Positions 3,724 through 19,901 of a DNA stretch of 64,000 nt are shown here, one piece after another. A program made the translations under genes and the position numbers. Every line of letters begins with the position of its first letter. The first letter of the stretch is position 1. This DNA is from Acidobacteria bacterium RIFCSPLOWO2_12_FULL_68_19. Lineage in GTDB: Bacteria > Acidobacteriota > Vicinamibacteria > Vicinamibacterales > UBA2999. The notes below the pieces were generated by a model, which worked only from the letters and a program-made list of their open reading frames with translations, ran no database searches and was not told the DNA's origin. The stretch covers positions 1 through 64,000 of the forward strand of contig MELF01000024.1 of assembly GCA_001767525.1 (NCBI GenBank). Direction: 5' to 3'.

Positions 3724-6480
3724 CTATGGCCGCCTTCCCATGATCTGCTGGCCGTCGGTGGTGACGTCTCTGGATATTTCTGTTCCACTCCCATCAGGCC
3801 ACCTGAACCGGAAATTGTGCGCGCCAACCGTGAGCGGCACCTCGTACGGTGGCTCATTACCCACGTAGACGCCGTTGATCCAGACACTGCTGGTGTTGGG
3901 ATTGCCGACTACGTTCACGCGACGTACTGGCGGCAGCGTGTGAACGAAGGTCTGACCCGCAGCCAGAGTCAGTGGGAGAGTCGTCGGGCGTACATAGAGC
4001 AGACTCGGCGCTCGAATTTCGACCTCATAGTTTCCGGCCGGCAGGCTCCTTTCGTGACTGAGGGCAGGTCCCGAGAGCTCACGGCCGAGCGTCACCCGAA
4101 TTGGATAATCTGCACGGATGATCAACCGTGCCGGAGCGGGCGGCGGAGGCGCCACTGGTGGAACCGGTGCCGGCGATGGCAGTGGAACCGGAGCTGGCGG
4201 TGGCAGAGGGTCGGGTCCGAACACCGCGGGCGGCCCGACTCGTGGCGTCCGCAGCAGACGCCCAAGCTGGTCGGGTCCGAACACCGCGGGCGGCCCGGAC
4301 CTGTCGGCGCTGCCGGGGGTCGGGACCGAAGGGGCGCTGCCATTCAGCGACAGCGTGTAGGCCCCACGTTGATTGGCCTCGTAGGCCTTGGCTTCAATCC
4401 GATAGGTTCCGGTGACTGGGAGCCGAATCGCGATGCGGGAATCGGTGCCGTCCGCATCGTCGTTCTCGGCCACGACCTTTCCGTCTGGGCCGACCAGAAA
4501 GAGGTACGCGTCGAACGAGGCTCTTAGTGCAATCGTCAGGCTCTGGCCAGCGCTGCCCTGGAAGGTGTATTGGTCTCCTTTGGAATTCCTCCACCGCGGA
4601 GTCTCGCAGTCGGCATCCGCCAGGACGCCCTTCACGGTCTGGCCAAGGCTGATCGCAAGCGGTGTGCAGGAGTCGAAGCGGTCGACTATGTCGACTATGT
4701 CGACTGACGACGCTCTCAGCGTGTAGGCCCCCCTTGCCTCGTCGCCATAGCCGACGGCTTCGACCGTGTATGTGCCCGTGGCCGGAAGCTGTGTCTGGAT
4801 CCGCGAATTGGTGCCGTCCGCATCGTCGTTCTCGGCGACGACGCCTCCATTCGGGCCGACGAGGAACAGGTATGTGTCGAACGGCCCCGTCATCGTAATC
4901 GTCACACTTTGGTCGGCGCTGCCCTGGAAAGTGTATTGGTCTCCTTTCGAGTCCCGCCGCCGTGGCGCCCAGCAGTCGGACTCGGTCAAGCTGCCGGCTA
5001 CTGTTTGTCCGAACGCGATTGCAGTTGACGTGCAGGGCGAGGTCATGCTCAGTGTATACGTCCCGCGCGCGTTGCCATCGAAACCAATGGCTTCGACCGT
5101 GTACGTGCCGCTGCTCGGGAGCTGCGTCTGGATACGTGAATTCGTGCCGTCCGCATCATCGTTCTCGGCCATGACGGTTCCGTCAGGGCCGAACAGCAAG
5201 AGGTACGTATCGAACGATGCCTTCATCGCGATCGTCGTACGCTGGCCCGCGCTGCCTTGAAAGGCGTAGCGATCACCTTTCGACGGCGGACGGCGTGAAG
5301 CGGCGCAATCAGCATCGCTGAGCATTCCCGTAATCGACTGGCCAGGTGTGATCGCCGCCACGTCGCACGGTGGGGGCGGAGGAGGTTCGACCGGAGTGGT
5401 CGCCGCCGTCAAACCCGTCGCGCCGGACACGGTCAATGTGTAATCGCCCTCTCCGTCGGAATAGGCCATTGCTTCGATGGTGTAGGTCCCGGCGGTCGGC
5501 AGGCGTATCTGAATGCGTGAGTTCGTGCCGTCCGCATCGTCGTTCTCGGCGACCACCCGCCGATCGGGACCGAGCAGAGCGAGATACGTGTCGAACGGAC
5601 TCCTCATGGTGACCGTGACGTTGTCGCCACCGGCGCCGTCGAAGGTGAAGATGTCGGCCCTGCCTCGTCGCGATGTCGCCGTGCAATCGTCGTCGGCGAG
5701 GTTGCCGGTGATTGGTTGGCCGGACACGATCGTTGTGGGAGCACATCCGGGGCTTGCAGGCGCTGGCGTAGACATCGAGCTTTCGGGAACCGACGAGGGC
5801 GTCGAGCTGAAGAGCCTCGAAACAGAGATGGCGAATATGACGACGGCCGGTCCCGCGCCGGCATACAGCGCGAACCTGGATTTCTTCCGAGTCGAAGGAC
5901 TCGGAACTGCGGCGGGGGGAGGGAGATCCGGGTCGGGGGCGACCTGTATCGAGCGTCGCGTCCGTCGGCGCGCGGCGGGCCGCTCCGGCGCCCCCTGGGC
6001 GGCGTTCTCGAGGCGTGCAAGCAGCTCGTAGGCGCGCGGGTGCGCCGGATCGATCTGGATCGCGTTCTCGGCCTCAGCCCGCGCGGCGCTCCAGTCCTGC
6101 CTCCGGAGCGCCTCTTCCGCGCCCGTCAGATGGCGATCGAGCCGTGCTTTCAGCTCCTCGCCCGGGGCCCCGTACCTAGTGGGAGGATTACTTGCCATCG
6201 GCCAGCATCCTGGCGCGCGCGATTGCGCGAGCTGCAACGAGTGGACCGGAGATGCTCCCGAGTCCGCCACGGCCGTGTGCTGCAGCTCATCGGCAGCGAT
6301 CGCCTTGACGAGGTGATCTGGTTCGGCCGGCAGCTCACGCTCGCGATGAGGCCAACCACAGAATCCACAGGTAGGCCCCTCATCGGAAACCCAGCACACG
6401 GCGCCGTCGTTGGGACAGTGCACAGGCGGCTGCTGAGACGAGACGTCCCAGGAGGAAGAAGTGTCGCCAGATGCGGTCAC
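3724..6480 (-). CDS. Zinc-ribbon/TPR/TM protein with four PPC domains and PEGA-like tail
   Basis: This is a 918-residue mosaic. Residues 22-41 hold a CxxxxxxC...CxxC zinc-ribbon-like motif (Cys22, 29, 38, 41). About 105-160 is TPR-like helix. A single transmembrane helix spans about 202-223. Four pre-peptidase C-terminal (PPC) beta-sandwich repeats follow between about 245 and 690, each with the signature AENDDADGT and a GTYxxEA strand. A Pro-rich linker carries a duplicated GPPAVFGPD segment, and two PEGA-like units end the protein (VWINGVYVGNEPPYEVPLTVG). No signal peptide is visible, so it should be a bitopic membrane protein with the ribbon/TPR part in the cytoplasm and the PPC part outside. 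The ATG overlaps the previous stop (ATGA), so translation is coupled. Zinc binding is inferred from cysteine spacing only. Confidence 0.7.
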   Translation of the reverse strand: MTASGDTSSSWDVSSQQPPVHCPNDGAVCWVSDEGPTCGFCGWPHRERELPAEPDHLVKAIAADELQHTAVADSGASPVHSLQLAQSRAPGCWPMASNPPTRYGAPGEELKARLDRHLTGAEEALRRQDWSAARAEAENAIQIDPAHPRAYELLARLENAAQGAPERPAARRRTRRSIQVAPDPDLPPPAAVPSPSTRKKSRFALYAGAGPAVVIFAISVSRLFSSTPSSVPESSMSTPAPASPGCAPTTIVSGQPITGNLADDDCTATSRRGRADIFTFDGAGGDNVTVTMRSPFDTYLALLGPDRRVVAENDDADGTNSRIQIRLPTAGTYTIEAMAYSDGEGDYTLTVSGATGLTAATTPVEPPPPPPCDVAAITPGQSITGMLSDADCAASRRPPSKGDRYAFQGSAGQRTTIAMKASFDTYLLLFGPDGTVMAENDDADGTNSRIQTQLPSSGTYTVEAIGFDGNARGTYTLSMTSPCTSTAIAFGQTVAGSLTESDCWAPRRRDSKGDQYTFQGSADQSVTITMTGPFDTYLFLVGPNGGVVAENDDADGTNSRIQTQLPATGTYTVEAVGYGDEARGAYTLRASSVDIVDIVDRFDSCTPLAISLGQTVKGVLADADCETPRWRNSKGDQYTFQGSAGQSLTIALRASFDAYLFLVGPDGKVVAENDDADGTDSRIAIRLPVTGTYRIEAKAYEANQRGAYTLSLNGSAPSVPTPGSADRSGPPAVFGPDQLGRLLRTPRVGPPAVFGPDPLPPPAPVPLPSPAPVPPVAPPPPAPARLIIRADYPIRVTLGRELSGPALSHERSLPAGNYEVEIRAPSLLYVRPTTLPLTLAAGQTFVHTLPPVRRVNVVGNPNTSSVWINGVYVGNEPPYEVPLTVGAHNFRFRWPDGSGTEISRDVTTDGQQIMGRRP

Positions 6481-7625
6481 GGGGTCCTCATCACGCCCTT
6501 GATGACGTCTAGAGGGGTTCCGTGATCGAATCTCGCGATTGCCGGCTTCGTGGTCAGGATCCTTTCTCCCACAAGCGGTTCACGTTCATCCTTGAGTTCA
6601 AAAAAGAGCGTGAAATCAGGATTCCAGATCGTTCCTTCACCGAGCACAAGCCAGAACTCACTTGCTTTGGTTCTTCGAAATCCGATCAACTTGTTTGCGC
6701 TCGTGCCTTCATTGAACTCGAATTGTCCGCCGCGAGTCACAAAAGAGCCCCAACGCACGCCCTGCCGAGTCGCCTGTTCTGTCAGCGATTCAAGAGTCAT
6801 GGAACCCTGACAGTACGCATCGAGTGGCAACTCCGTCTGGCGACTTGAGCCTCTGGGCGAGTCGGCCGAGGTGGCAATGGCGGGAGTTTGCCAACTCTTG
6901 GGTATCTCACCATCGCCGAAAGATTCCGATTCGATTTCCTTTGGCGTGCGTGTACCTGCTTTGGGCTCGATGCGATCATCAAGACTTTTCAGGGCGCGCA
7001 GGATGTCATCGGTGGCCTGAGAGCGCGCGACGTGCTTATCTAGGTAGCTAATGGTGACACCAAGGTTGGCCAGCTTGCCACCAAGGTTGGCCAGCTTGCT
7101 TTGTTGCTTGAACGAGATGACGATAAGCGCGAGTATCCCAACTGAGCCCAGCGCACCCAGCACCAAGAGCAATACGGATACAAATTCAGTTTGTTGATCG
7201 CTTGGCCGTGCAGCTACGCCGTTGCCGGAAAGCCTGATCCTCATGAGATCGTCGTCCACCGTCAGCTCAGCGTTGTGACGCCCTTCATCTGTTGGAGAGA
7301 ATGTCACAGCGATCTCGCACGTAGTGCTCTGATCAGGCCAGGCGCACGATGGATTGGCGGCGACGAATCCATGGTCCGGGGTGACTTTGATCGCCAATGC
7401 CGGCAGCTTTTGGCCATCTTGGTCGGTCAACGTGATTGTCTTCTCGGATGCCGTGTTTACCGGCTGGTCACCAAAGTCGATTGCGGATACGCCTAGCGCT
7501 CGTGGCTCTAGTGCGTCAGCGGACCCGGCACCCTCCTGAGCAGCTCCTAGCGATGCTCCCCAGGTGACAAACGCGAGGCTCAGAACGAGACCAACGGTCG
7601 AAATGACAACGACGAGACGGGCCAT
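6477..7625 (-). CDS. Membrane protein with signal sequence and ASPM/SPD-2/Hydin-like Ig domain
   Basis: The 382-residue product starts with a signal peptide (LVVVISTVGLVLSLAFV). Residues about 45-135 form a choice-of-anchor/ASH-type beta-sandwich (VSAIDFGDQPVN, then TCEIAVTFSPTDEGRHNAELTV). A transmembrane helix follows at about 150-170 (VSVLLLVLGALGSVGILALIVI). The C-terminal half starts with a short coiled coil containing a duplicated KLANLGGKLANLG segment and continues into an unrecognised 200-residue domain. Topology is therefore outside-Ig, one helix, inside domain. It follows the Hsp70-like gene by three bases and overlaps the next gene by four, so it belongs to the same transcript. I do not recognise the cytoplasmic domain. 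Confidence 0.65.
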   Translation of the reverse strand: MARLVVVISTVGLVLSLAFVTWGASLGAAQEGAGSADALEPRALGVSAIDFGDQPVNTASEKTITLTDQDGQKLPALAIKVTPDHGFVAANPSCAWPDQSTTCEIAVTFSPTDEGRHNAELTVDDDLMRIRLSGNGVAARPSDQQTEFVSVLLLVLGALGSVGILALIVISFKQQSKLANLGGKLANLGVTISYLDKHVARSQATDDILRALKSLDDRIEPKAGTRTPKEIESESFGDGEIPKSWQTPAIATSADSPRGSSRQTELPLDAYCQGSMTLESLTEQATRQGVRWGSFVTRGGQFEFNEGTSANKLIGFRRTKASEFWLVLGEGTIWNPDFTLFFELKDEREPLVGERILTTKPAIARFDHGTPLDVIKGVMRTP

Positions 7626-7628: not shown

Positions 7629-10091
7629 TTATACGCTCACCAACTGCTTCTGCAGCTCCGCCTTCAGGCCATCAGTGACTTTACGAACCGGGTGGCTAGG
7701 CGCGCCGTCCTCGTTGGCTAGGATGGCAGCAAGCCCGGCGCGATAGTTAAGTTCCACGTCCTTATGAATTTGGGCCTCGTGTCTAGCATCCGGGTGGAAC
7801 CCCAGGAACCCCACAACGTTATGCAACGAGTCTCGCAGGCACTGATCGAGTTGCGCCGTTGTAGAAGCGTCCACGTCACGGCGTTGAAGGCGCCTTGCGG
7901 CGGCTTTGTCGTAGCGCGAGGCCCAGGCAATCGGAGGAGTTGCCGTCTTGACGTCGGCCCACCAGAGCGTGTTAAGCGCTAGGCTGTCTATAGATTCTGG
8001 AACAAACAGGGCGCCCTTGCAGACGGAGAGCTTGGCGTCGTTACTAGACCCCCAATTGAACGTCACGTCTGCGTTTGGCGCGACGGCCTTCGCCGCGCTT
8101 GTCAGGATGCGGCGCGAGACCTCGACACGATTCATCAGGCCCTTGACTACAGGAGCCAATTCAAACAACCGCGATCCCAAACCCGAGAACCAGACCCACA
8201 TTCGCTGCGCCTCAGGAACCTCGCTGCGACTGGTCGTGCCTGGGAGCGCGGCCATCTTGATCCCATACGACGTCGCCAAGGTGAGCAGGATGAGCATCTC
8301 TGCGAGGGTCCCCGACAGGCCAGCCATGGCCATCCTCGAGGCGATGGCTTCCAAGCCATCTCTTGCGGCCATGCGCCGCACAAGCAGTTGCTGCACAATG
8401 CGGGCCTCCGGTTTTGGGTTGGGAGGCGTCTTGTCAAACAGACGCTGCCAGACCTGATCGGAGTTTGCGCCATTCTTGTCAGCGTACGAGATCAACATTG
8501 GAGCGAGATCCTTACCCCCTATGTAGAGCGAATCCAGGAACAGTGGATCCCCTTCGCCTGTAAAGACGCTGATGTCTGTGGTTCCGCCACCAATGTCTAC
8601 GACGACGTGGCGTTCCGCTGGCGACCGGCTTCCTTGGTTCTTGACGGTCGTGCGAATGAGGTAGTAGTTCGCAAGGCTTTCGGAGACGAGGCTGTCGCGA
8701 CTGGTGACACGGAGGCCGCAACTGGTAAGGCTGTCTCCAAAGGCGATGGTCGCTTGCTTCAGGCTCTCCATTTGGTGGTACGTGAAACTGAGTGGGCAGG
8801 TAAAGACGATGTGAACGTTCCTCATCGTTCGGTAGACTTTGTTGGTGCGAAGCTCGCAGGCGACGATGAGTCCCAGATTTTCTAGAAACGCAGAACGGTA
8901 GTCGGCGCCAGCCTCGTCGTCCTGCCACTTGAACTCCTGCTTTAGACTATTCTGTCTCTTGGACGCCAAAGTCCAGATATCATCGTCGGTGAACGTATCT
9001 CCGGGGATGCACCGCGCAGGCAGGAGTTTGGAATTGCTGAAAGTGCGGTCGTCGAACTCGACAAGCAGCGTTGACAGCGGGTTACGAAGAGGAGTTGAGA
9101 AGGGAAAGAAGCCCTGTCGGCTGATGGGCCAGATGCGGGGATTGAGGCCTGCTTCCTCAGTAAGGTTTACGGCGAGAGTGTTCTCTGAGAACGACAGGAC
9201 TTCCGATTCTCCATCGTCCGTGCCGATGGCCACAGCGGTGTTCGTTGTGCCGAAATCCACTGCGACGTTAAGGCGGCGGCCCGCCTCTGTTTGGGCAGGG
9301 AGCCTTAGGTCGCCAAAGGAGGATCGCTTCGCGCTGATACGAGAGAGACTGATGATACCGTCCGGAGGGGAGACCACGATCGGCAGTAGGCCATGGCATA
9401 GGCCATGGTTCTCCCGATCGAAAAAGCCGATGGCCCGCGGAACCGTCTCAGAACGACACACAGCCTGCACGTCGTCATTTGATACGGCGGTCTCACCTCG
9501 AAGGAGTTCTCCGTCGCGGCCCAAGTACAGAATCGACGGCTCAATAGCGGACCTGTCGGCGTCGAGGGGCCGCGCGAAGGTCTTTACCTGCTGGCTCACG
9601 AGCTCCGGGGTCCCTGTGCTGAACATGAAATAGAAGCTCTTCCACTCGGGGATCACCCGTCGAGGCCACGCCGCCACTCCCAGGGAGAACTCGGCGACCT
9701 GGTACTTGCGAGTGATAAGAACTCCACCCCAGTTGATCTGAAACGATGCTTCCGGCTGCTGGGTTCGCCAGTTCGTGGCCATTCGCTGAATCACAAGGTC
9801 GATGAGCTCTCCAGGGAGTTTTTTGAACAACGCTTGATTGATGGGATAGCAGGGGAAGCCCTGGACGGTGTACAGAAGCTTGGTGTCGGTCCAGACCTCT
9901 CGCTCGAATACCGGCACAGCTCCTTGCACCGGCACACCACCGACGTCGATGAATTTCTGGCCGTCCTCGGTGAGCGGTGGGTTGGAGTCGATTGGGACGT
10001 CCGTACGCCACTCCTGCCCCTTTGTCGCAGGCGAGACGCTCTCCGGGATCAGCCAGAATTCCTTGTCGTTGAGCTTCAAGACTCCAGGCAC
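7629..10091 (-). CDS. Hsp70/actin-fold ATPase with extra N-terminal domain
   Basis: The 820-residue product (GTG 10091; the frame could also start at 10145, overlapping the upstream gene by 47 bp) contains an actin/Hsp70 ATPase core. The phosphate-1 loop is VAVDFGTTNTAVAIG (about residues 278-292). Phosphate-2 is VVVDIGGGTTDISVF (about 496-510). A later segment, VWFSGLGSRL, fits the adenosine-site position. The first roughly 270 residues are not Hsp70-like and I do not recognise them. There is no recognisable substrate-binding domain, so it is closer in architecture to SrfB-like or ParM-like ATPases than to a DnaK chaperone. The gene lies directly behind a tubulin-like gene, giving one operon with both actin-fold and tubulin-fold NTPases. 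The nucleotide-binding call is secure; the role is not known. Confidence 0.7.
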   Translation of the reverse strand: MPGVLKLNDKEFWLIPESVSPATKGQEWRTDVPIDSNPPLTEDGQKFIDVGGVPVQGAVPVFEREVWTDTKLLYTVQGFPCYPINQALFKKLPGELIDLVIQRMATNWRTQQPEASFQINWGGVLITRKYQVAEFSLGVAAWPRRVIPEWKSFYFMFSTGTPELVSQQVKTFARPLDADRSAIEPSILYLGRDGELLRGETAVSNDDVQAVCRSETVPRAIGFFDRENHGLCHGLLPIVVSPPDGIISLSRISAKRSSFGDLRLPAQTEAGRRLNVAVDFGTTNTAVAIGTDDGESEVLSFSENTLAVNLTEEAGLNPRIWPISRQGFFPFSTPLRNPLSTLLVEFDDRTFSNSKLLPARCIPGDTFTDDDIWTLASKRQNSLKQEFKWQDDEAGADYRSAFLENLGLIVACELRTNKVYRTMRNVHIVFTCPLSFTYHQMESLKQATIAFGDSLTSCGLRVTSRDSLVSESLANYYLIRTTVKNQGSRSPAERHVVVDIGGGTTDISVFTGEGDPLFLDSLYIGGKDLAPMLISYADKNGANSDQVWQRLFDKTPPNPKPEARIVQQLLVRRMAARDGLEAIASRMAMAGLSGTLAEMLILLTLATSYGIKMAALPGTTSRSEVPEAQRMWVWFSGLGSRLFELAPVVKGLMNRVEVSRRILTSAAKAVAPNADVTFNWGSSNDAKLSVCKGALFVPESIDSLALNTLWWADVKTATPPIAWASRYDKAAARRLQRRDVDASTTAQLDQCLRDSLHNVVGFLGFHPDARHEAQIHKDVELNYRAGLAAILANEDGAPSHPVRKVTDGLKAELQKQLVSV

Positions 10092-10098
10092 GGTCAGT

Positions 10099-12372
10099 TC
10101 AGCCTCTCTGTGGCTCTTCGAACAGCCCACGAATCCAGCGCGCAACGCCAGGGATCGGGAATTCCGTATAGAACGGCGGGAGCGTCTCCGCGACGGTCCG
10201 GGCCTCGAAATTGGCGAGAAATCTTAGGAAACGCTCGCCTTGCCGATCGGCGTTCGGAACCTGGGAGGCCCGGAGGGCCTGCACCCAGTCTCGCTCGATG
10301 CGAACGCAAAGCTGGCGAGGAAAACCGCGACGAGCCACATAGAGGCCGAATCGTTCGATCTCGGTGCGTCGCTGGCTCGACAGCCCCATCGCCGGCACCA
10401 CGACGGTGTCGGGGTAGAAGAAACCGATCACATCCTCTTCGCTCGGCACCCCGTCGTCTTCCAGCGGCACGGTCGTGTCGAAGAGCACCAATAATCCGCC
10501 TTCGGCCACGACGCTCTTGTCGTACGCGGGAATTGGACACGTCTTCGAGAGCGATTCCCTGAACGTCTCGTTGAGCTGTCCTTGCCTCAACAGCCGCACG
10601 GGTACGGCCGCGCTGCCGGGACGTTGCAACATCGCGATGGCGAGCAGGCCTAAGTGGAGGTAGCGACGATCGTCCCGGGCCTTGCCCGAGTACAGGATGT
10701 CGCGGTGCACAATCGCAGGCGCCCACGCGGACGGGTACTCCGAATGACTGCGTCGCGAATTCCGCTCGCTCCACTTTCCGAGTGCGAGTGACGTCAGCTG
10801 CCGTTTGGTGTCCTTCGCCGAGTGGAATTCGTCGTTCGGAGTCGTCGGCAGTTGCAGTGGTTGATTGTCGACGTCGCGATCGTGCGCCTGCCACCGAAGC
10901 TGATAGCCGCCTGCTCTCGCTTGTCCACCTGGTGCCTCGAGAGCCAACGCCCCTGCAACCCAGCGCCAGAGCGAGCGTGCGACCACCTCGGCGTCGCCCT
11001 GCAGCGTATAGTCGTCAAACAGCGCGAGAGGATCGCCAGCACCAATCAGCGTGGGCGCGGAAAGGCGCTCCATCAGCGGCAGGAAATCTGGCGGGAACGA
11101 CTCCCTCGTGATCCGAACACGACGTTCGAGTCGCTCGCGCTCCTCGTCGGAAGGCGATGCAGACAGCAACTGGTCGTGTGGATAAGCTCCCGAATTGATG
11201 AGGATTTCCTTGAGAAGCGCTCGAACCTCGCCGAAGTGCTCTTTTAATTGAGCGGCGGTCATCCCACCGGTGGCGCATACTCGATGAACCCAAGGGTGCC
11301 CGGGCAGTACTCCGTCGTCGTCAACGTGGTCGAGCAGTGGGATGAAATAAGAATCCAATAGGCGGCATGACACCGCCGCGCGAAACAGGACGGTGCGCAG
11401 ATCTGCCAGCGGACCTTCGTAAGGTTGAACCGGGAGCCTTCGGATCCGGACGTCGTCTGTCAGCTCCTTGTGATTGAGGACGAAATCCCTCGCCGCCAGT
11501 GCCCCGAGATACTCAAGGAACAGATGCGGGTTGTCCTGCTGGTCTCGAGCAAACCACTCGGGTGGAAACGCGGCTGGGACCGGCGTGCCTAGAGGGTAGA
11601 TGGCTTGACAAGGCAGGTTGCCCGCCTGGGCGAGGTTGTCGAGAAACTCGTACGCCGCGCCCGTCCGGCTTTCAAAGCTTTCCGGCAGGTTAACGAATCC
11701 GCCTGTGCCGTCGTTGCCAGATGAATCGGGCTCGAAGTACGGCTCGAGCTGAATGATCGCGATCGGCACCTTGACCGGCTTGAGCTGTGGATCGTCGCGC
11801 AGCAAGCGAGCAATGTGCAATAGGCCGGCGGCGCCCGTGCCCCCGAACCCGCTTCCAAAGAGCACCACGCAGCCGTCGCCAGAAAGCAGATGCTCCCGGA
11901 TGGCGGCCAAAATACTGTCTCGGCCCTTCGGGTCGTTGAAGAAACACACACCTGCGTTGACACGACCGTAGTATCCGTTTGCGAAGTCGCGCCCGCCAGG
12001 AACGCCGATCTCGCTGCCGTCGAAAAGGAGTCTGGCGGCAGCCTTCGCCTGTCGCGAGTCCGCGAGACCGAGCAAGTCGAAGAGGCTTTCGTGCGTGCTT
12101 GGCTGGAGCACGTTCGAACCCACGACGCGCGAGATGGATAAACCGAAGAGGCCTTGGCCACTCAAGGTGGTCGCCCTTCGCGCTGCCCGCACCGCGAGGT
12201 ATCGGTCGATGAACCTTGTCGTCGCGGTAATTCGCGGGTGCTGCTGATCCTGGTCCACCATCACCGGGATGAGGTTCCATCCGTCCGGAAGCAGGCCGAG
12301 GGCCGACAAATGAGTCAACGTTTCCGTACAGGCGGCGCCGCTACCTCCTACCCCGACGCATATGAGTTTCAT
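10099..12372 (-). CDS. Large tubulin/FtsZ-like GTPase
   Basis: The 757-residue protein opens with a Rossmann-type strand and glycine loop (ICVGVGGSGAA, residues 4-14) and carries the tubulin/FtsZ signature loop as GSGFGGTGAAG (about 173-183), preceded by the strand GCVVLF. These correspond to the T1 and T4 nucleotide loops of the superfamily. The protein is about twice the length of FtsZ, with a long C-terminal half I cannot assign. To my knowledge the closest described group is the FtsZ-like family (FtsZl-1) reported in operons with vWA and membrane proteins and proposed to act in membrane remodelling. The neighbours fit: a vWA lipoprotein and a membrane protein lie immediately upstream and an Hsp70-like ATPase downstream. 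Polymerisation and GTP hydrolysis are inferred from fold only. Confidence 0.75.
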   Translation of the reverse strand: MKLICVGVGGSGAACTETLTHLSALGLLPDGWNLIPVMVDQDQQHPRITATTRFIDRYLAVRAARRATTLSGQGLFGLSISRVVGSNVLQPSTHESLFDLLGLADSRQAKAAARLLFDGSEIGVPGGRDFANGYYGRVNAGVCFFNDPKGRDSILAAIREHLLSGDGCVVLFGSGFGGTGAAGLLHIARLLRDDPQLKPVKVPIAIIQLEPYFEPDSSGNDGTGGFVNLPESFESRTGAAYEFLDNLAQAGNLPCQAIYPLGTPVPAAFPPEWFARDQQDNPHLFLEYLGALAARDFVLNHKELTDDVRIRRLPVQPYEGPLADLRTVLFRAAVSCRLLDSYFIPLLDHVDDDGVLPGHPWVHRVCATGGMTAAQLKEHFGEVRALLKEILINSGAYPHDQLLSASPSDEERERLERRVRITRESFPPDFLPLMERLSAPTLIGAGDPLALFDDYTLQGDAEVVARSLWRWVAGALALEAPGGQARAGGYQLRWQAHDRDVDNQPLQLPTTPNDEFHSAKDTKRQLTSLALGKWSERNSRRSHSEYPSAWAPAIVHRDILYSGKARDDRRYLHLGLLAIAMLQRPGSAAVPVRLLRQGQLNETFRESLSKTCPIPAYDKSVVAEGGLLVLFDTTVPLEDDGVPSEEDVIGFFYPDTVVVPAMGLSSQRRTEIERFGLYVARRGFPRQLCVRIERDWVQALRASQVPNADRQGERFLRFLANFEARTVAETLPPFYTEFPIPGVARWIRGLFEEPQRG

Positions 12373-12375
12373 GGC

Positions 12376-12885
12376 CTACCTGCCCCGGAGAAGCGTGTTG
12401 GTTGAGCCGAACGCAAGAACGGCCATGAAGAACTCGACCGCGCCGAAAGCAGCGATTGCGCTCACGATGACCACCCAGCCAACCACGGGGACATCCCGCA
12501 GGTCTTGGCCCAGCAGAATCGCAGTGGTCGCGAGCGTGCCCGACGCAATGAACACCAAGCCAAGATCGCGGTAAACGAGGCCCTTAAATCTCAGAACTTG
12601 GCTGACCTGGAACGATCGCAAACGCTTGCGCCAGCGGTACGCAAGCCAAAACCGAGCGGCGAAAGCGACGACAGCGGCTGCAACGAGCAACCCGATAGTC
12701 CACAGGCGAAGCGTTGCAGCAAACAGGCGATAGCCGTCGGTGCCGAGAAGGCTAGCGCCGAACCACTCCGGCCAGAATCCTTCGCTGTAGTTCCCGAGTC
12801 CTGGCGACAGGACGTACGCGAACAGTCCAGGCGGAGGCAGTAGCAGCAGCCACCACGCCATTGAATGTCGTTTCCAAGAGGCCAT
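12376..12885 (-). CDS. Multi-pass membrane protein of the tubulin-like operon
   Basis: Starting at ATG 12885, eleven bases after the vWA stop, the product has 169 residues and about four hydrophobic helices: WWLLLLPPPGLFAYVL, then WTIGLLVAAAVVAFAARFWLAY, then LGLVFIASGTLATTAILL, then VVGWVVIVSAIAAFGAVEFFMAVLAF. A basic loop (RWRKRLRSFQ) lies between helices two and three. It has no family name I recognise. The gene ends three bases before the tubulin-like start, so the two are almost certainly co-translated. It is a good candidate for the membrane anchor of the GTPase. Confidence 0.7.
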   Translation of the reverse strand: MASWKRHSMAWWLLLLPPPGLFAYVLSPGLGNYSEGFWPEWFGASLLGTDGYRLFAATLRLWTIGLLVAAAVVAFAARFWLAYRWRKRLRSFQVSQVLRFKGLVYRDLGLVFIASGTLATTAILLGQDLRDVPVVGWVVIVSAIAAFGAVEFFMAVLAFGSTNTLLRGR

Positions 12886-12896
12886 CGTCGTTGTTC

Positions 12897-14492
12897 CTAG
12901 TAGTCGATATGCAGCAAGAAGCGCATGACTGGACCCCTCTGAAGCAAGAAGTCGAACTGCTGACGAACCTGATTCCAGTTCACGCATCCTGTGGATTGGT
13001 AGCTCTGAAGCGTCTCGAGCAGATAGCGATTCTGTTCTCGGACGGGTGCGGTCACTTCGACGAGAAACCAAGCGCAGCCCTTTCCGTTGGCCGTTGTCCT
13101 CCGAACGCGGAGACGCAGCGGCGACAGTTGCGGCTGGCCTGCATCTGCCGGCGACTCGGTGGCCTGCGCGAGGAATCGCAGCGTGCGAGACACACGGCCT
13201 CCAGGTGCCACGCCCGACGCCGCATTCGAGCCTTCGGTGGGCACCTCCGTGTTCACCAGGCGCACGAGAGACAAACCGTCGGCGGTCGTGACGTTGCCTT
13301 CGCTGTCCAAGGCCATCGGATCCTGCCAGTCGAATCGGGCCTTCGACCAGTCGATCTGCTGGAACGCGGAGAGTGCACCGGTCTGGAAGGTTGTTTTTTC
13401 AAGCCTAAACTCGACGATGGCTTCATCGCTTTCCGCGAGCTCTATCGCAACACGTGGAAGGGAGCCCACTCGCCTTGGATTCAAATCAGAGATATCATCT
13501 CGAAAAATCAGCGATGGGTCGCGAGCGTCTGTCTCCGCAATCGCACGTACCTCGAAGGCCACAGCCGGGCGCGGCAGGAGGGGTACGTAGGACAAGGGTC
13601 GGACAGATTGCCAGTAGTCCCTGAAGTGAGCATAGACACGCTCGGCTGATTTGGGCGAGGGGGCCAGGACATAGATAAACAGTAGCTTCTCGGCGCAGGC
13701 GCAGTAGTTCGCGACTCCCGGCGATTGCCACGGCTGATATTTGATGCTGGCGACGATCAACGCCGCAAAGCCCCCGCTCTCAGTCCATTTGTTGAGATAG
13801 GACTGAATCGTGCTGGGGTTCAGTCCATTTGGGCACGAGGGGTCATTGACAGGTGCATTTTGCTCGGCATCCGTCAGGATAACGTTCAAGCGGTCGGTGC
13901 CGCCCTTGAGCGCCGCCTCGAAGACACGATCGAGACAGGTCGTCCGATCAGCGTAAAACTGATCGATCCGCCCCCGTAGCAGGGCCCCGCCGGCCCACAC
14001 TTGAGGCCGGGCGCAATCAGTCGACGCAGGGACACCCGGCCGTGTGCGAGCGGGCGCTTCCACCCTGACCGAGGCTTGCTCAATGAACTAATCAAGCCCA
14101 ATTGGCGCGTCCACAACGGCGCCAAAAGTGGCGGCGTGCCCGGGAGGTTCGGTTGCTTCGGCCGCAGGCGCGGCGCCGGGCCGTGCCGGGCGCGCGACCT
14201 GCGTGGGCAGCGAGCGGAGAGCATTTAGGAAAGAAAAGTACTCGGGTGCCGCAGATCGATCGTTGGCCGCCGCGGCGAGGGCGAAGCCTCGCATGCTCCC
14301 GGAGACGTCAAAATAGATGTCGACCGCAGCCGGGTCACCGCCCTCGGTGGACAGGGTGAGGCTGACCGCGTCGGCTTGAGACGCCGTCATCAGTTCCGTC
14401 CGTCCGCTCCCACAACCCAGAGTGATGAACGAGATGGCCACGAATCCCCAAAGGCCAACACAGGAAGAATCCAAGCACACACGTCGAGCCAA
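12897..14492 (-). pseudogene. vWA-domain lipoprotein interrupted by an in-frame amber codon
   Basis: Two frames that look separate are one reading frame broken by a single TAG at 14088-14090. The upstream part (TTG 14492, GGAGG six bases before it) encodes a lipoprotein signal (VAISFITLGC) followed by a vWA MIDAS strand, AVDIYFDVSGSMRG, with the DxSxS metal site. The downstream part continues with DRLNVILTDAEQN, the second conserved vWA strand, and a 300-residue C-terminal region. The join reads FGAVVDAPIGLD, stop, FIEQASVRV, with no shift in frame. Without the stop the protein would be about 531 residues. TAG ends other genes here, so it is unlikely to be recoded. The options are a real nonsense mutation, a sequencing error, or a split into two polypeptides with a GTG restart at 14063. 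vWA proteins typically partner such NTPases. Confidence 0.75.
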
Positions 14493-14590
14493 AAGGAACC
14501 TCCGAATCTCTGTAATTCCGATGGGCGTGAACTCAGAGGTCAGACAGACTTGTGGACGAGTTTGCTTACCTATCACGCGCAAAGGGCTAC

Positions 14591-14645
14591 TGTCAACTGT
14601 CACGTTGGGCCCTTGTCAACGTTGGGCCCTGTCAACGTTGGGCCC
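14591..14645. repeat. Triplicated GTTGGGCCC-containing repeat
   Basis: A unit close to TGTCAACGTTGGGCCC occurs three times in tandem; the last two copies are exact and the first carries a small change. It overlaps the 3' end of the small membrane-protein gene and lies in the leader of the vWA gene, where it could affect transcription or simply be slippage. Confidence 0.75.
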
Positions 14646-14910
14646 TTCCTGGCTTGTCTTGTGCCGCCGATTTCCTCACGTGCCGCTCGCTTAGAGCCGC
14701 CGTAACCACAACCCATAGCACCACAGCCACGATGGCTGACTGAAGAGCGTGCCCAGCCATCCAGACCAACGCCTCACCGATCACGGCTGGACCACCGAGA
14801 CGATCGAAACCCACAGCGAATCCCCGCAAGACCAACTCGTCGCGGATAAGGTCCCAAAGATAGGGCAGGACGCCGCTGGCAAGGAACGCGACCGTCGAGC
14901 GAGTGGCCAT
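14632..14910 (-). CDS. Small two-helix membrane protein
   Basis: From ATG 14910 the frame gives 92 residues with two hydrophobic segments (TVAFLASGVLPYLWDLI and AIVAVVLWVVVTAAL) and a strongly basic tail (SERHVRKS). No family is recognised. It lies about 140 bp upstream of the vWA lipoprotein on the same strand and may be the first gene of the tubulin/Hsp70-like operon. Coding potential is moderate because the gene is short and its end overlaps a tandem repeat. Confidence 0.45.
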   Translation of the reverse strand: MATRSTVAFLASGVLPYLWDLIRDELVLRGFAVGFDRLGGPAVIGEALVWMAGHALQSAIVAVVLWVVVTAALSERHVRKSAAQDKPGRAQR

Positions 14911-15001
14911 TGTGATACCGCCAAATGACAAGTTCGCCTATGTGACCAACAAGGAGGGCGAGAGCGTTTCGGTGATTGATCTCACGACCAACCCGCAGTT
15001 G
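14903..15001 (+). pseudogene. Fragment of a YVTN-type beta-propeller blade
   Basis: In the plus frame from 14903, the stretch PNDKFAYVTNKEGESVSVID is a clear match to one blade of the YVTN beta-propeller repeat family, with the family's eponymous YVTN. Only about one blade remains; the sequence after DLTTN is not propeller-like and the frame ends at 15106. It overlaps the start of the minus-strand gene slightly. It looks like a scar of a deleted secreted propeller protein between the two divergent operons. Confidence 0.5.
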
Positions 15002-15083
15002 CCCTCATCTCAACCAGAGGTCTTCGTCGAACGCCTACATCTTGACGACGATCGCCTCCGCTCAATGGTCGGGGCGGCTGCCG

Positions 15084-15632
15084 TCATCGCCAGCCGTTGG
15101 TCTTGAACGACACTCCTATCGGTTGTGCGACCAAGAGGTGCACATCAGCCGTATCGGGCTCCATATTCTGGAAGAAGAGATCGATGTAGGCCACGCTTGC
15201 TTTGGCCGTGGCGACGCCTGTGGTTGCGCCTCCCAGGCCCATGCTAAACAGATTCATCGGCCGATCGACGCTTTCATCGACGGAGAACGTTGAGACCCCG
15301 CTGCACTTGGCTACGTCCGACCTCGTGCCGTACCTGTAATGCAGCACCATGTCCTGGGCATTCACCGTCAGTGCCTCGCCAGCAGGCTTCGTGATCTTCA
15401 GCATCAGCACAAGGCCGCGGTACATGTCGGTCCGCGCTTGGTTGAACGAGGCGTTCACGCCCTTCAATTCCTTGACGAACAGCGCGCCGACGATCTCGAT
15501 CTTCACTTTGCTCGAGTCAAATACTTGTGGCGCAATTGTGTTGCCTTGGTCTTGGGCCCTGGCGTTTTGGCCAGCCATCAGCAGTCCGCCAACCATCACG
15601 CAGAGAACGCCCGGTTGCATTCGAGCTCTCAT
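15084..15632 (-). CDS. Secreted protein of unknown function
   Basis: The start ATG 15632 follows a strong GGGGAGG site and opens a signal peptide (VLCVMVGGLLMAGQNARA, probable cleavage after ARA). The 182-residue product has a mature part of about 155 residues with alternating strands (KVKIEIVGALFVKEL, LVLMLKITKPAG, MVLHYRY, ASVAYIDLFFQ, VHLLVAQPIGVSF), suggesting one periplasmic beta-sandwich. The frame extends far upstream but that part overlaps the sigma-factor gene and lacks coding character. It lies between the two divergent operons and is transcribed with the tubulin-like side. No family recognised. Confidence 0.6.
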   Translation of the reverse strand: MRARMQPGVLCVMVGGLLMAGQNARAQDQGNTIAPQVFDSSKVKIEIVGALFVKELKGVNASFNQARTDMYRGLVLMLKITKPAGEALTVNAQDMVLHYRYGTRSDVAKCSGVSTFSVDESVDRPMNLFSMGLGGATTGVATAKASVAYIDLFFQNMEPDTADVHLLVAQPIGVSFKTNGWR

Positions 15633-15843
15633 CACACACCTCCCCTGTTGTTTCACATGTCCCTCATACCGGCCGGACGGCCAGAGTTGGCATGGAAACC
15701 AAGCTGACCAACTACTCGGCGGCCGGTCATCTTCGCCAAACCAATACGACAGTTGCCGTGAAATACGGGATCTGACTACACTTCTGGCCTCGTAAAGAAC
15801 AAGACGGGGCTGTTGCAGAAACCCGAGATCGAAAGTCTGACGA

Positions 15844-16584
15844 ATGTCTCTGCCGTCCGATGCCGGCCGTGCACGCGCTAAGGCGGAGACGCGCTTCCCG
15901 CAAACGTCGTGGGAGCTGCTCACCCAGGCTGCGGCCGGGGACGAGCAGGCGGCGCCTGCCCTCAACGAGTTTTCCGAGCGCTACTATGCGGCGGTCCGTG
16001 CGTACATTGCGGCCATCGTTCGGGATCCGGCCGAGTACGAGGACACGACGCAACGTTTCTTTCTGACCGTCGTCCTGTCGCGCGGCCTGCTCGCACATGC
16101 CGACAGCAAGCGGGGAAGGTTTCGTACATACCTGAAACAAGCAATCCGCCACTTCCTGGTCGATGAACTCCGGAAGCGTGGCCGCAAGAAGGCGCGTGGC
16201 GCGGAACCCGACCTCCGTCCCGATGCACTTCCGGGCGGATGGGACCGCCTTCTCGACGGTGCGTCCCCAGCACCCGACCTGGCATTCCAGCGGGCATGGA
16301 CGAAGAGCCTCGTCAACATCGCCCTCGTCCGCGTAAACCGCATTTGCGAGGAGAAGGGGCAGAACTCGCACTTCCGCCTGTTCATCGGCCGCTTTCTGAG
16401 CACGCCCGAAAAGGGATGGCAGGAGCTCGGCGCGGCGTTCGGTCTCGATGAGAAGACCGCCAGGAGCCGAGCCGACACCGTCGTCCGACACTTCCGCCGC
16501 ATCCTTCGCGAGTTGCTAGCCGCCGAGCTCGAGTCCGAGGCAGATGTCGATGACGAGATCCGCGCTCTTATTGCCCTTCACTGA
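15844..16584 (+). CDS. ECF-type RNA polymerase sigma factor
   Basis: The 246-residue protein has a sigma-70 region 2 (about residues 40-120, from FSERYYAAVRAYIA to HFLVDELRKRGR) and a region-4-like helix-turn-helix near residues 190-225 (WQELGAAFGLDEKTARSRADTVVRHFRR). This extracytoplasmic-function type is often encoded next to Ser/Thr kinases in Acidobacteria and Planctomycetes, and a kinase gene follows two genes downstream. It is the first gene of the plus-strand chaperone operon, so it probably controls that operon and perhaps the divergent one. No anti-sigma factor gene is visible; control by the kinase is an inference. Confidence 0.75.
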   Translation: MSLPSDAGRARAKAETRFPQTSWELLTQAAAGDEQAAPALNEFSERYYAAVRAYIAAIVRDPAEYEDTTQRFFLTVVLSRGLLAHADSKRGRFRTYLKQAIRHFLVDELRKRGRKKARGAEPDLRPDALPGGWDRLLDGASPAPDLAFQRAWTKSLVNIALVRVNRICEEKGQNSHFRLFIGRFLSTPEKGWQELGAAFGLDEKTARSRADTVVRHFRRILRELLAAELESEADVDDEIRALIALH

Positions 16585-16610
16585 GGCACTTCTGGAGGAC
16601 AGAGCCGACC

Positions 16611-17078
16611 ATGCGCAAACCGCCCTTGGATGACTCCGCCAACGTTTCTGTTGACGACATCTCGCCGAGCCAAATCGCTAGGCTGCTGGGCCTCGCTCTC
16701 GACGACGCGTGGTCCCGCACCGGCACTGGCGATGGGATTGCCCTGCTCGAGCGCTCGCTCGCGCAGTTGTGTGGCGGCCGTGAGTCGTCGGACCTGCTGA
16801 TGTCGGCGCTTTCCGATACCACCCCTCTCGAGGGGCTGCGTTACATCAAGGCGGAGGCCAAACGGCTCCTGGAACGGGCCCCTCGCGGACCCCAGCGAGA
16901 CGCGGCCAAGGTCTTGTATCACCTCTCGATCGCCCAGGCGCTCGTTCGGTTCGGCGTCGCCATTTCCCGTATCCCGCCGGCGAAGCGGTGTCCCCTCTAC
17001 CGTGCGTTTGCGGAAGCCTTCGGAGATCATCCCGTGGGCCAGGTTTTCGCACGAGCCGCCAAAGGTCGGCAGGGTTAG
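16611..17078 (+). CDS. Conserved-looking helical protein of unknown function
   Basis: The 155-residue, mostly helical and charged product starts 26 bp after the sigma factor, with GGAGG upstream. No signal peptide or membrane helix is visible. Its position between a sigma factor and a Ser/Thr kinase would suit a regulatory partner, but nothing in the sequence shows that. The strong coding look, including IARLLGLALDDAW and LYHLSIAQALVRFGVAI helices, supports a real gene. I do not recognise a family. Confidence 0.6.
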   Translation: MRKPPLDDSANVSVDDISPSQIARLLGLALDDAWSRTGTGDGIALLERSLAQLCGGRESSDLLMSALSDTTPLEGLRYIKAEAKRLLERAPRGPQRDAAKVLYHLSIAQALVRFGVAISRIPPAKRCPLYRAFAEAFGDHPVGQVFARAAKGRQG

Positions 17079-17148
17079 TCTTGTACCCCGGGTTGATTCG
17101 GTATTTGCGGATGGATGACGTAATGGGTGGTGAAGGCGGTACCCCCCG

Positions 17149-17165
17149 CCGCCGGCAGCCGGCGG
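17149..17165. other. GC-rich hairpin before the kinase gene
   Basis: CCGCCGG and CCGGCGG flank a three-base loop, giving a stable stem about 20 bp upstream of the GTG start of the kinase gene. There is no U-tract, so it is more likely an RNA-processing or translation-modulating hairpin than a terminator. Confidence 0.5.
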
Positions 17166-17184
17166 GGACACATAGGAGGGCTCG

Positions 17185-18288
17185 GTGAGTCTGCTGCGCG
17201 AAGGCCAGATGATCGGCGGAACCTGCGAGGTCGAACGGTTCCTCGGTGAGGGGGCGTTCGCGGAGGTCTATCGCGTCAGGCACCGGTTCTTGGGCCGGCA
17301 GGCGATGAAGGTTTTCAAAGCAGTCGGCATGACGATGGAAGAGATGGAGCGGATGCTGTTCGAGGCGATCCTGCTGTCGCGACTCAGCCATCCCAATATC
17401 ATCCACGTCTTCGACGCCGACGTTACCGAGACGTCCCTGGGCACCAGCGGATTCTTCACGATGGAATACGTCGCGGGAGGCACTCTCGAGCAGTTCTGGC
17501 GGTCTCACGGCACCCAGTTCGTCCCGGCCGAGGCGACGGTAGAGATCATGCGCCAAGTCTGCCGAGGCCTCGCAGTAGCGCATGCCGAGAATCCACCAAT
17601 CGTTCACCGCGACATCAAACCGCAGAACGTGCTGGTCGGGTACGACACGAGCGGACTCAACGCGAAGGTGTGTGACTTCGGCCTCGCGAAGCAAGTCAAC
17701 CCGCTGACGATGCTGGCCAGCGCGCGCGGCACCCGCTGTTTCAAAGCTCCGGAGACGATCCTCGACTGGCAGAATGACTCCCGTGCCGGCGACGTGTGGG
17801 CGATCGGATCCACGATGTACCTTCTCCTCACGGATCGGCTCCCTTACTCCGAGCTCGGTGATGACGGCACCCTCGACCCGCGGCGCTTCGAGCGGCCGCT
17901 GATTCCTCCCAGCCGGTTGAATGTGCAGGTCGATGGTGGCCTGGACGAGATCGTGTTCCGGACCCTCGATCGGCGGCCGGATTGCCGCTACCAGACCGCC
18001 GCTGAACTGTTACGGGATCTGAACAGCTGGCGACCGCGGTTGCGCTCGACGAAGGACCGGGCGTTGTCGCTCGGCTCCTCTGCGATTTCAAAGACGGCGC
18101 TCGGCGTCCATTCACCGGCCGACCAGGAGGCGGCTCCCCGCATGATTCGCAAGGCCTTGCGGCTGGCCAAGGGGGCGCGCTTCGCCGACGCGGCCGACGT
18201 GATGGAAGAAGCGTTCAACGAGCAGCCGGAACTGCGGACTCGATACGAATATCAGGTCAAGCTGTGGCGGCGCGGTGTTGCGATGTGA
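17185..18288 (+). CDS. Serine/threonine protein kinase
   Basis: The 367-residue cytosolic kinase has all key elements: a glycine loop GEGAFAEVYRV, the ATP lysine in QAMKVF, the catalytic loop HRDIKPQNVLV, the DFGLAK metal site and the activation-segment end KAPE. The kinase domain spans about residues 12-285. The tail of about 80 residues has a helical, TPR-like look and lacks the transmembrane and PASTA or propeller modules of receptor-type kinases. GTG start, with AGGAGGG upstream. In an operon with a sigma factor and Hsp70-type genes it may phosphorylate the sigma factor or a chaperone component; this is inference. Confidence 0.9.
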   Translation: MSLLREGQMIGGTCEVERFLGEGAFAEVYRVRHRFLGRQAMKVFKAVGMTMEEMERMLFEAILLSRLSHPNIIHVFDADVTETSLGTSGFFTMEYVAGGTLEQFWRSHGTQFVPAEATVEIMRQVCRGLAVAHAENPPIVHRDIKPQNVLVGYDTSGLNAKVCDFGLAKQVNPLTMLASARGTRCFKAPETILDWQNDSRAGDVWAIGSTMYLLLTDRLPYSELGDDGTLDPRRFERPLIPPSRLNVQVDGGLDEIVFRTLDRRPDCRYQTAAELLRDLNSWRPRLRSTKDRALSLGSSAISKTALGVHSPADQEAAPRMIRKALRLAKGARFADAADVMEEAFNEQPELRTRYEYQVKLWRRGVAM

Positions 18289-18295
18289 GGCGGTG

Positions 18296-19900
18296 ATGAC
18301 GAATCTGCAGGATCCATCGGCGGCGTCGTCAGGTCAGGCCTCGGATCGCAGCACCGAGCTTGCGGCGATGATCCTTGGCATGGCCGACGCGACCCTCTAT
18401 CGCACGAATGCGTTCCGCCTCGTCGGCGCCCCGGTTCATGCGACCGCACGCGAGATCGCACGACGGTTCGAACGGCGAAAGCTGGCCCACCAAGTGGGGA
18501 CGGCCGTCGCCGCCGCGGCGGGTCCGCTCGCGCTCGATCCGCCCCCGGATGCGGCCACGGTCCATCAGGCCGTGCACCGGATCCACGACCCGGAGCGTCG
18601 CCTCATCGAAGAGCTCTTCTGGTTTTGGCCGGTCGATGACACACAGGGTCCGGATCCTGCGCTGGAGGCTCTCGAGCGCGGCGACACCACTACGGCGATT
18701 GCCATCTGGCGGGGCAATGATTCCGACGGGATCGGCGTCCACAATTTGGCCGTGCTCTTCCACGCGCTCGCGCTCGACCTCGAATCGTTGCCGCAGTCGC
18801 TCGCGCGCGACCCGCAGCGGCGGCGCGATCGCTGCTGGCGGGAGAGCTTCGCCCACTGGCAGCAGACGATCGATCGCGAGCAGTTCTGGAGCCGGTTGAC
18901 CCAGCGTATCCGCGAGCTGGACGACCCGCGCCTGACCACGGGCACGACGCGGAGCATTCGCGCCAGCCTTCCGACCGCACTTCTCTGCATCAGCGCGCGC
19001 CTGGCGATCTCGGCCGCCGAACGGGGCGCCGACGAGGACAGCGCCCGCCACGCCGGCTTGATCGAGGAAAGCGGGTTGGGTGCGGATGCCGCCGAGCGCG
19101 CACTCGAGACCATCCTCGAGCCGATCCGCCAGCGGGTCCTCACCCTGTGCCGGGTCGCCGAGCCGGCCGCGTCGGCCGATCCCGCGAACGCGCACCGCAT
19201 TGCCGAACAACTGCTCGATCAGACGACACCGCTGCTCGACTCGCTGACGTTCCTGCGCGACGGCCATCCGATGCGCGAAAGCGCTCATGACGAGGTCGCG
19301 CATTGCGCACTGGCGTGCCAGATCACGTACGGCAACAAGACGCAAGACTGGGAGACGTCGCTCCGGCTGCTGACGTGCGTCCTCGCCGTGTGCAGCAGCG
19401 CCTCCGCGCGCGCTCGGGTTGAAAGCAACCTTCAGGTCGTCAAGGAGAACGTCGCCTTCGCTCGGGAATCCGGCCGGTGCTGGTTCTGCGGCACCGCCAA
19501 CGCTGTCGAATCCGCCGCGGTGGAGGTGAAGCTCCACGGCAACGAACGTCGTGTCCAGGAGTGGGACGGGGAGCGCCTCCTGTGGAACACGCTGACCGTG
19601 AAGGTGCCGCGGTGCGGCACGTGCAAGACGACGCAATCTCGCGCAACCGGGTGGGCGGTTGTCATCTTCATCGTGTCCACGGCCATGGGCTTCATTTCGA
19701 GCGGTGCGGGGCCTGAAGACGCCGGTGCTGCGGTTGTTGGGTTTGGAGGCCTGATCGCCGGCGGGATCGCCGCTGCGGTGACCCACAACTTCCTCATGGG
19801 AGGCGTGAAGCCGAGCGGGGCCGCCCCGTCGTTCCCCGCGGTCAAGCGGAAGCTCGATGAAGGCTGGAAGCTGGGCGAGAAACCAGAGGGGGCGCAGTGA
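18296..19900 (+). CDS. J-domain-like protein with zinc ribbon and membrane segment
   Basis: The start ATG 18296 lies eight bases after the kinase stop, behind GAGGCGG. Residues about 25-95 (LYRTNAFRLVGAPVHATAREI to IHDPERRLIEELFWFWP) resemble the J-domain-like module used by cryptic Hsp70 partners, although the HPD tripeptide is not obvious. A long helical middle (about 100-380) follows. A zinc-ribbon pair (CWFCGT, then CGTCK) brackets a short beta segment near 395-450. A hydrophobic region near 455-495 looks like one or two membrane helices. Together with the GrpE-like and DnaK-like genes next door it suggests a dedicated, membrane-attached Hsp70 cycle. The J-domain assignment is tentative without an HPD motif. 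Confidence 0.55.
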   Translation: MTNLQDPSAASSGQASDRSTELAAMILGMADATLYRTNAFRLVGAPVHATAREIARRFERRKLAHQVGTAVAAAAGPLALDPPPDAATVHQAVHRIHDPERRLIEELFWFWPVDDTQGPDPALEALERGDTTTAIAIWRGNDSDGIGVHNLAVLFHALALDLESLPQSLARDPQRRRDRCWRESFAHWQQTIDREQFWSRLTQRIRELDDPRLTTGTTRSIRASLPTALLCISARLAISAAERGADEDSARHAGLIEESGLGADAAERALETILEPIRQRVLTLCRVAEPAASADPANAHRIAEQLLDQTTPLLDSLTFLRDGHPMRESAHDEVAHCALACQITYGNKTQDWETSLRLLTCVLAVCSSASARARVESNLQVVKENVAFARESGRCWFCGTANAVESAAVEVKLHGNERRVQEWDGERLLWNTLTVKVPRCGTCKTTQSRATGWAVVIFIVSTAMGFISSGAGPEDAGAAVVGFGGLIAGGIAAAVTHNFLMGGVKPSGAAPSFPAVKRKLDEGWKLGEKPEGAQ

Positions 19901-19901
19901 G

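Follow-up and report, generated by a model that had tools for sequence, protein, structure and literature searches.

Organization of the locus

The stretch analyzed here (the window) comprises 64,000 nucleotides, positions 1 to 64,000 of contig MELF01000024.1 from the assembly GCA_001767525.1 of Acidobacteria bacterium RIFCSPLOWO2_12_FULL_68_19, and carries on its reverse strand a gene cassette with two central products: Z, a member of the tubulin/FtsZ superfamily, and Act, a protein with an actin-type ATPase fold (Table 1). The gene for Act lies directly downstream of that for Z, the two frames overlapping by 47 bases, and the pair is preceded by genes for a vWA-like lipoprotein and a small membrane protein. 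Comparison with related loci shows that Z and Act are partners and that their domains follow one order, Z-M-B-A, which is divided between two genes at different places and in two relatives is not divided at all. An earlier, sequence-only reading had taken 10099-14492 as the module; this range does hold the Z, membrane and vWA genes but leaves out Act (7629-10145).

Table 1. Features of the cassette in the window
Feature	Coordinates	Strand	Basis
Z, tubulin/FtsZ-superfamily protein, long form (Z-M), 757 aa	10099..12372	-	open frame, hhalign, VIA fold match
Tubulin-like domain of Z, ~residues 1-345	11338..12372	-	VIA to FtsZ, CetZ and tubulin; hhalign to short Z, P 2.2e-35
T4-like loop GSGFGGTGAAG, Z residues 173-183	11824..11856	-	alignment of 21 loci
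Conserved part of the M domain in Z, residues 539-668	10369..10758	-	hhalign P 5.5e-6, shuffles
Act, actin/Hsp70-superfamily protein, form without M (B-A), 838 aa	7629..10145	-	hhalign, VIA
Actin-fold ATPase domain of Act, residues 290-750; phosphate motifs VDFGTTNTAV and DIGGGTTDIS	7896..9278	-	VIA Z 18.8 to MreB; motifs
Membrane protein, 169 aa, 3-4 predicted transmembrane helices	12376..12885	-	hydropathy; BLAST to relatives
vWA-like lipoprotein frame, one in-frame TAG at 14090-14088	12897..14492	-	tblastn of two relatives; motifs
Fifth gene: ASH-like domain, transmembrane helix, C-terminal stretch common to the L017 gene after Act	6477..7625	-	Pfam, BLAST
Proposed variable ZnR-X gene: Cys-rich N-terminus, TPR, PPC domains, PEGA-like C-terminus	3724..6480	-	Pfam, Cys pattern

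Protein Z

Z belongs to the tubulin/FtsZ superfamily and has its nucleotide-binding fold, including the T1 and T4 glycine loops. The N-terminal start reads ICVGVGGSGAA, and this loop and the T4-like loop both line up with the corresponding glycine motifs of 20 other loci; since G9, G10, G12, S174, G177 and G180 are moreover invariant in the 21 sequences, the loops are not a chance resemblance. In an AlphaFold2 (AF2) model built from 7 sequences (mean pLDDT 57.8, pTM 0.58), residues 1-335 match E. coli FtsZ with a VIA Z of 15.3 (3.8 Å, 195 residues aligned, 13% identity) and CetZ2 and tubulin with 13.5 each, a comparison that speaks only for the families that VIA lists. The sequence-only reading had assigned the protein to this superfamily from its two loops and had looked to structure prediction and the T4-like loop for a check; the tubulin fold of the model and the conservation of both loops across the family bear it out.

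Sequence comparison supports the same fold, as the three long Z proteins align with 11 short ones (hhalign P 2.2e-35 over 379 columns) and short Z proteins match PF13809 and PF00091, the best of them, from locus L018, scoring 44 bits where the PF13809 cut-off is 27. At E<=0.001, 8/21 cassette Z proteins match PF13809 and 6/21 match PF00091. For the window Z, no convincing match is obtained to Pfam, NCBIfam or PADLOC models, PHROGs gives nothing, and PDB sequence searches with Z and with a Z profile return weak matches only, including a tubulin/FtsZ chain at E 0.81. The column after helix H7, taken as the equivalent of T7, holds R in 3/3 long forms and D in 10/18 others, which hints that the T7 acid may have been lost in long-form Z. 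MAFFT puts a conserved LIHALY-like C-terminal tail at the ends of long and short forms alike, but hhalign does not support it as a shared feature, its alignment of the two forms stopping near residue 391.

Protein Act

Act has an actin-type ATPase fold of the MreB/Hsp70 kind. Although its AF2 model as a whole is of low quality (mean pLDDT 47.8, pTM 0.51), residues 290-750 match MreB with a VIA Z of 18.8 (3.5 Å, 286 aligned), DnaK with 17.5 (integrative model) and 16.5 (crystal 2v7y), actin with 15.9 and FtsA with 15.7. A Foldseek search with Act ranks DnaK first (3.1e-9), and a profile built from 7 Act proteins retrieves MreB from the PDB sequences at 2.7e-6. The window protein carries both the phosphate 1 and the phosphate 2 motif; the Pfam HSP70 model does not match it at E up to 1, and it weakly matches the phage partition-protein family phrog_691 (E 0.0037). 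In one relative, L020, a second actin-superfamily protein of 959 aa is encoded near the cassette (16367-19246), with a match to HSP70 at 1e-7 and one to SrfB just under the cut-off.

Distribution and partnership of Z and Act

Matches to Z are sparse. They occur in 1/100 genomes of the class and, in the phylum, in 13/396 genomes by single-protein search (E<=0.01) and 15/396 by profile (E<=0.001). Among plasmid records, the window Z finds 1 and short Z finds 6; four contigs of a viral contig collection also match, and no phage record does. A single-protein scan of a genome contig collection with Z gives no match, a search with the long-form Z alignment and two peptide patterns returns only the two genomes already known, and three further scans of the viral contig collection yield one locus, on a contig already in the set.

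In total, 21 loci were opened, from 13 of the 15 phylum genomes, 4 of the 6 plasmid records and the 4 viral-collection contigs, two of them (L025 and L026) being near copies; the cassette loci of G213, G250 and two further Picosynechococcus plasmids lie outside this set. Seven weak places (L008-L014, E 1.9e-4 to 6.5e-3) were missing from the profile search results and were dropped, and L022 and L023, fetched around two of them, were not used.

The firmest result is that Z and Act are partners. All loci were gathered by Z alone, so the presence of Act was not selected for, and an Act-like part is nonetheless found in 21/21, as the next gene in 19 and in the same frame as Z in two (L059 and L062). 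The sequence-only reading had suggested the downstream Hsp70-like ATPase as a possible partner, a suggestion that this co-occurrence upholds. Queried against plasmid records, Act retrieves the same five cyanobacterial records as Z, the cassette being carried on cyanobacterial plasmids, while a second Act query retrieves the Prevotella record that it came from, also found by Z. Trees of Z and of Act show the same main groups.

One domain order, divided at different places

The lengths of Z and Act vary in opposite directions. In most loci a short Z (465-600 aa) accompanies a long Act (1,042-1,504 aa), whereas the window and two other loci combine a long Z (752-769 aa) with a short Act (789-838 aa). 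In many loci the summed lengths are alike (1,588 in L018, 1,596 in L015, 1,595 in the window, 1,558 in L016, and 1,689 and 1,599 in the fusions), with outliers that include L027 (2,104) and L057 (1,722). These similar sums arise because a domain, M, sits either in Z or in Act: residues 539-668 of long Z align with the N-terminal end of long Act and with a central part of the fusions (hhalign P 5.5e-6, score 49.0). By comparison, 150 column shuffles reach at most 15.7, the reversed profile 15.5 and other parts of the cassette 15.1-20.7, and two disjoint subsets score 43.2 (shuffle maximum 22.7) and 39.5 (shuffle maximum 22.9). With fewer sequences the test was weak (P 0.017 with whole Act; P 0.029 with the 11 short sequences collected first), and it became strong as more were added. 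Act of the long form matches the rest of Act (B-A) with P 3.9e-39 and M with 0.072. The order is accordingly fixed as Z-M-B-A, with the gene boundary placed behind Z, behind M or missing altogether, and the "extra" C-terminal length of Z corresponds to a domain that Act carries in most relatives.

The uncut arrangement is found as a frame of 1,689 codons in L059 and one of 1,599 codons in L062, both on draft-genome contigs, one of them from a genome that is 65% complete. The short-Z profile matches their N-termini (7.5e-43 and 3.3e-10, respectively) and the Act profile their C-termini (6.2e-21 and 5.1e-13). Both trees nest L059 within a clade of short forms (100/100) and leave L062 outside that clade. 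The fusions therefore look independent of each other, although L062 is a long branch. The joining of Z and Act in both points to one machine in which the two act together.

Upstream genes

The genes for a vWA protein and a membrane protein that the sequence-only reading had placed directly upstream are both there; the former, however, is not one open frame. The vWA-like frame, which is open to 14603 and has an uncertain start codon, contains a lipobox (TLGC), a metal-ion-dependent adhesion site (MIDAS; DVSGS) and a TD motif (LTDAEQ). Tblastn with two relatives crosses the gene in a single frame through one TAG at 14090-14088, which rules out a frameshift as the cause of the break. The stop sits in a stretch that is poorly conserved between relatives; the gene is a pseudogene, affected by a sequence error, or expressed as two polypeptides.

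A vWA-like protein is encoded upstream in 20/21 loci (inverted in L030) and downstream in L062, the assignment in several loci being by position only. The upstream position in L062 is taken by a pyrroloquinoline quinone (PQQ) enzyme and no vWA protein, and its downstream vWA-like lipoprotein has a degenerate MIDAS. Among the 21 vWA-like proteins counted as upstream, 17 have a lipobox pattern and 13 a strict DxSxS MIDAS at residues 58-117; in ten aligned proteins, picked because they carry the motif, the D, S, S, T and D of the MIDAS-like pattern are invariant. No profile search places the vWA fold of these proteins over threshold. A small gene with predicted transmembrane helices precedes Z in all 21 loci, and the 169-aa membrane protein of the window matches those of L016 and L017 by BLAST (5e-15 and 4e-5). 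In L018, an inserted RHS-repeat gene of 1,710 aa (10915-16047) separates the membrane-protein gene from Z.

Downstream genes and wider surroundings

The fifth gene of the window matches Pfam ASH at 2.1e-4, below the cut-off of that model, and a gene of L017 by BLAST (3.5e-5 over 37 aa). In L017, whose cassette is closely related to that of the window, the fifth gene is followed by a TPR gene and an FGE-sulfatase gene, both starting with a CPxDG...CGW pattern that also begins the product of 6480-3724 in the window. This product matches Pfam PPC in 4 stretches (3.9e-34), and its BLAST link to L017 (6.8e-5) includes low-complexity sequence. One cassette group shows a common Cys-rich N-terminus of about 150 aa with differing C-termini, namely FGE-sulfatase (L058, L061), beta-helix (L058), and TPR and Ig/PKD (L061). 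L021 and L025 have ZorB-like (2.5e-13; 1.9e-7) and ZorA-like (2.4e-4; 6.2e-5) genes after Act, whereas the ZorA matches of L062 (4.8e-9) fall in an apparent coiled coil. A caspase gene lies near L057 and a CHAT gene near L058.

On the forward strand of the window, a divergent cluster at 15844-26124 encodes a sigma-70 region 2 protein, a Ser/Thr kinase, an 833-aa HSP70, a TPR-OmpA-like protein and a ClpB-like AAA protein, the last three at 20453-26124. Further along the same strand (33398-36374), three open frames of ~310-350 aa that resemble one another in sequence lie in tandem. Elsewhere in the genome there is an ordinary FtsZ gene adjoining an FtsA-like gene, as well as a second FtsZ paralogue of 357 aa (G000:C12:5071-6141, equivalent to L056 1360-2433 on the forward strand; PF00091 6.5e-32). 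The latter starts with MTVSRRQFLVLAGAGITSLPYLPTARGQA, which resembles a twin-arginine export signal; 19 other relatives have one match each (33-37% identity), and among the matches listed none covers the first 34 residues.

Proposed function

The favored interpretation, to which an even chance is given, is that the cassette encodes an envelope-anchored tubulin-actin machine that acts in conflict, in a defence-like manner, rather than in cell division. Z, presumably a GTPase, and Act, presumably an ATPase, would form one cytoplasmic machine of the order Z-M-B-A, tethered to the inner membrane by the small membrane protein, with the vWA-like lipoprotein on the other side of that membrane. A signal or metal-dependent ligand may engage the lipoprotein and be relayed by the membrane protein, upon which Z and Act would assemble or change state through nucleotide turnover and recruit as outputs the variable downstream proteins, in which a zinc-ribbon-like N-terminus is combined with TPR, PPC, FGE-sulfatase or Ig modules. 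Envelope anchoring is proposed because of the lipobox and the predicted transmembrane helices, and a conflict role because of the variable output genes, the Zor-like, caspase and CHAT neighbors, the plasmid copies and the sparse distribution.

Several observations weigh against this interpretation. Neither Z nor Act matches any PADLOC defence model, and the Zor-like, caspase and CHAT genes occur in relatives, with none beside the window cassette. The vWA-like frame of the window matches no Pfam model and a PDB profile search gives nothing over threshold, so that the vWA call is motif-based, and its stop codon means that this copy of the cassette may be decaying. The fifth gene of the window is not significantly similar to that of other groups (P 0.061). 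For the folds, both AF2 models, from 7 sequences, have low mean confidence (57.8 for Z, 47.8 for Act), and plain Foldseek with Z gives 0 matches below 1e-3, with two reductases at the top and tubulins from rank 3 (2.5e-3).

Tubulin and actin homologues normally form separate filament systems. Slightly less than even weight is given to the wider claim that the cassette represents a new kind of envelope-anchored machine, a conflict sensor-effector in which tubulin and actin homologues would be obligate halves of one enzyme and, in some bacteria, one polypeptide. The pairing, the domain that shifts between genes and the two single-chain joins make direct coupling of both folds testable with purified proteins, and FtsZ-like proteins of unknown role gain a partner.

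Alternative explanations

Membrane remodelling of the FtsZl1 type, in which Z filaments would bend the membrane or bud vesicles with Act as a chaperone or accessory motor, is unlikely. In its favor, the vWA, membrane and, in some relatives, OmpA/MotB-like neighbors resemble those given by Makarova and Koonin, an ordinary FtsZ is present elsewhere in the genome, and Z is distantly homologous to canonical FtsZl1 (hhalign P 7.7e-11 against 18 proteins, from 19 regions fetched). Yet the window Z has no PF13809 match, whereas this model is matched at E<=0.001 in 27/396 phylum genomes, mostly by long proteins covering it whole; the Act (B-A) profile finds any match in just two of the 19 canonical regions (4e-8 and 0.006); and the AF2 secondary structure of Z residues 362-757 shows, at low confidence, no long coiled coil, unlike the extended coiled coil and helical C-terminal domain of FtsZl1. 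DO-GTPase2 (PF19993) and GAP1-N2 (PF20013) are each found in 0/15 cassette genomes, in a search that covered these two models, with C. glutamicum as positive control, and not DO-GTPase1 or GAP1-N1. The membership in FtsZl-1 proposed by the sequence-only reading is thus not sustained.

A chaperone relay for envelope proteins, with Act as an Hsp70-like chaperone, Z as a scaffold and the HSP70/ClpB-like cluster of the window included, is quite improbable. Act does match DnaK nearly as well as MreB (17.5 against 18.8, with DnaK first in Foldseek), and the HSP70, TPR-OmpA-like and ClpB-like genes lie close by. However, BLAST near the cassette in the other loci gives a single protein kinase match and no further relative of the divergent cluster, the window genes having been taken by a longest-frame rule that left the gene 18275-19900 outside the test, and no substrate-binding domain has been identified in Act, no search having been aimed at that domain. 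Plasmid or chromosome segregation by cytomotive Z and Act filaments, like TubZ and ParM, would fit the cyanobacterial plasmids and the weak phrog_691 match but is highly improbable, as lipoprotein and membrane-protein genes would be unexpected in such a system and no phage record matches Z.

Comparison with known systems

FtsZ and FtsA provide the familiar case of a tubulin homologue acting with an actin homologue at the membrane. FtsZ, FtsA and MreB are, however, separate proteins and far more conserved than Z and Act. ZorA/ZorB-like genes, as in ZorAB of Zorya, follow Act in two relatives and are absent beside the window cassette, and neither Z nor Act matches any Zorya model. FtsZl2 is described as a tubulin domain with an alpha/beta C-terminus of ~300 aa and no conserved neighbors; the conserved neighbors of the cassette argue against it.

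FtsZl1, or Tubulin_2 (PF13809), is likewise among the closest known systems. Its neighbors include vWA, GTPase, kinase and OmpA genes according to Makarova and Koonin (2010, PMC2875224), and it shares with the cassette a divergent tubulin GTPase domain, a vWA gene in the operon (in the window by its motifs), an ordinary FtsZ alongside, and membrane and OmpA-like neighbors. In this phylum, canonical FtsZl1 proteins mostly span 760-1,500 aa and cover PF13809 from end to end, whereas the tubulin domain of the cassette is followed by M, a domain in common with the actin-like partner.

Kaur et al. (2020, PMC7159879) have described GTPase-centered conflict systems in which tubulin, HSP70, vWA and FGE-type effectors occur; section 29 of their article calls the tubulin and HSP70 themes non-overlapping. 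The DO-GTPase/GAP1-N2 systems, thought to be conflict-related, resemble the cassette in their tubulin, HSP70, vWA, zinc ribbons, FGE-sulfatase-type effectors and membrane components; they are defined by the GTPase and GAP1, whereas the cassette has a tubulin and an actin/Hsp70 protein as partners. In the open-licence literature, no description was found of a GTPase-free tubulin-actin cassette or of the fusion. Because DO-GTPase2 and GAP1-N2 are missing from the genomes searched, Act is rare in canonical FtsZl1 regions and Z is distant from FtsZl1, the cassette is akin to the FtsZl1 and the DO-GTPase systems yet separate from each of them, and represents a tubulin-containing envelope system without the GTPase thought to define related conflict systems.

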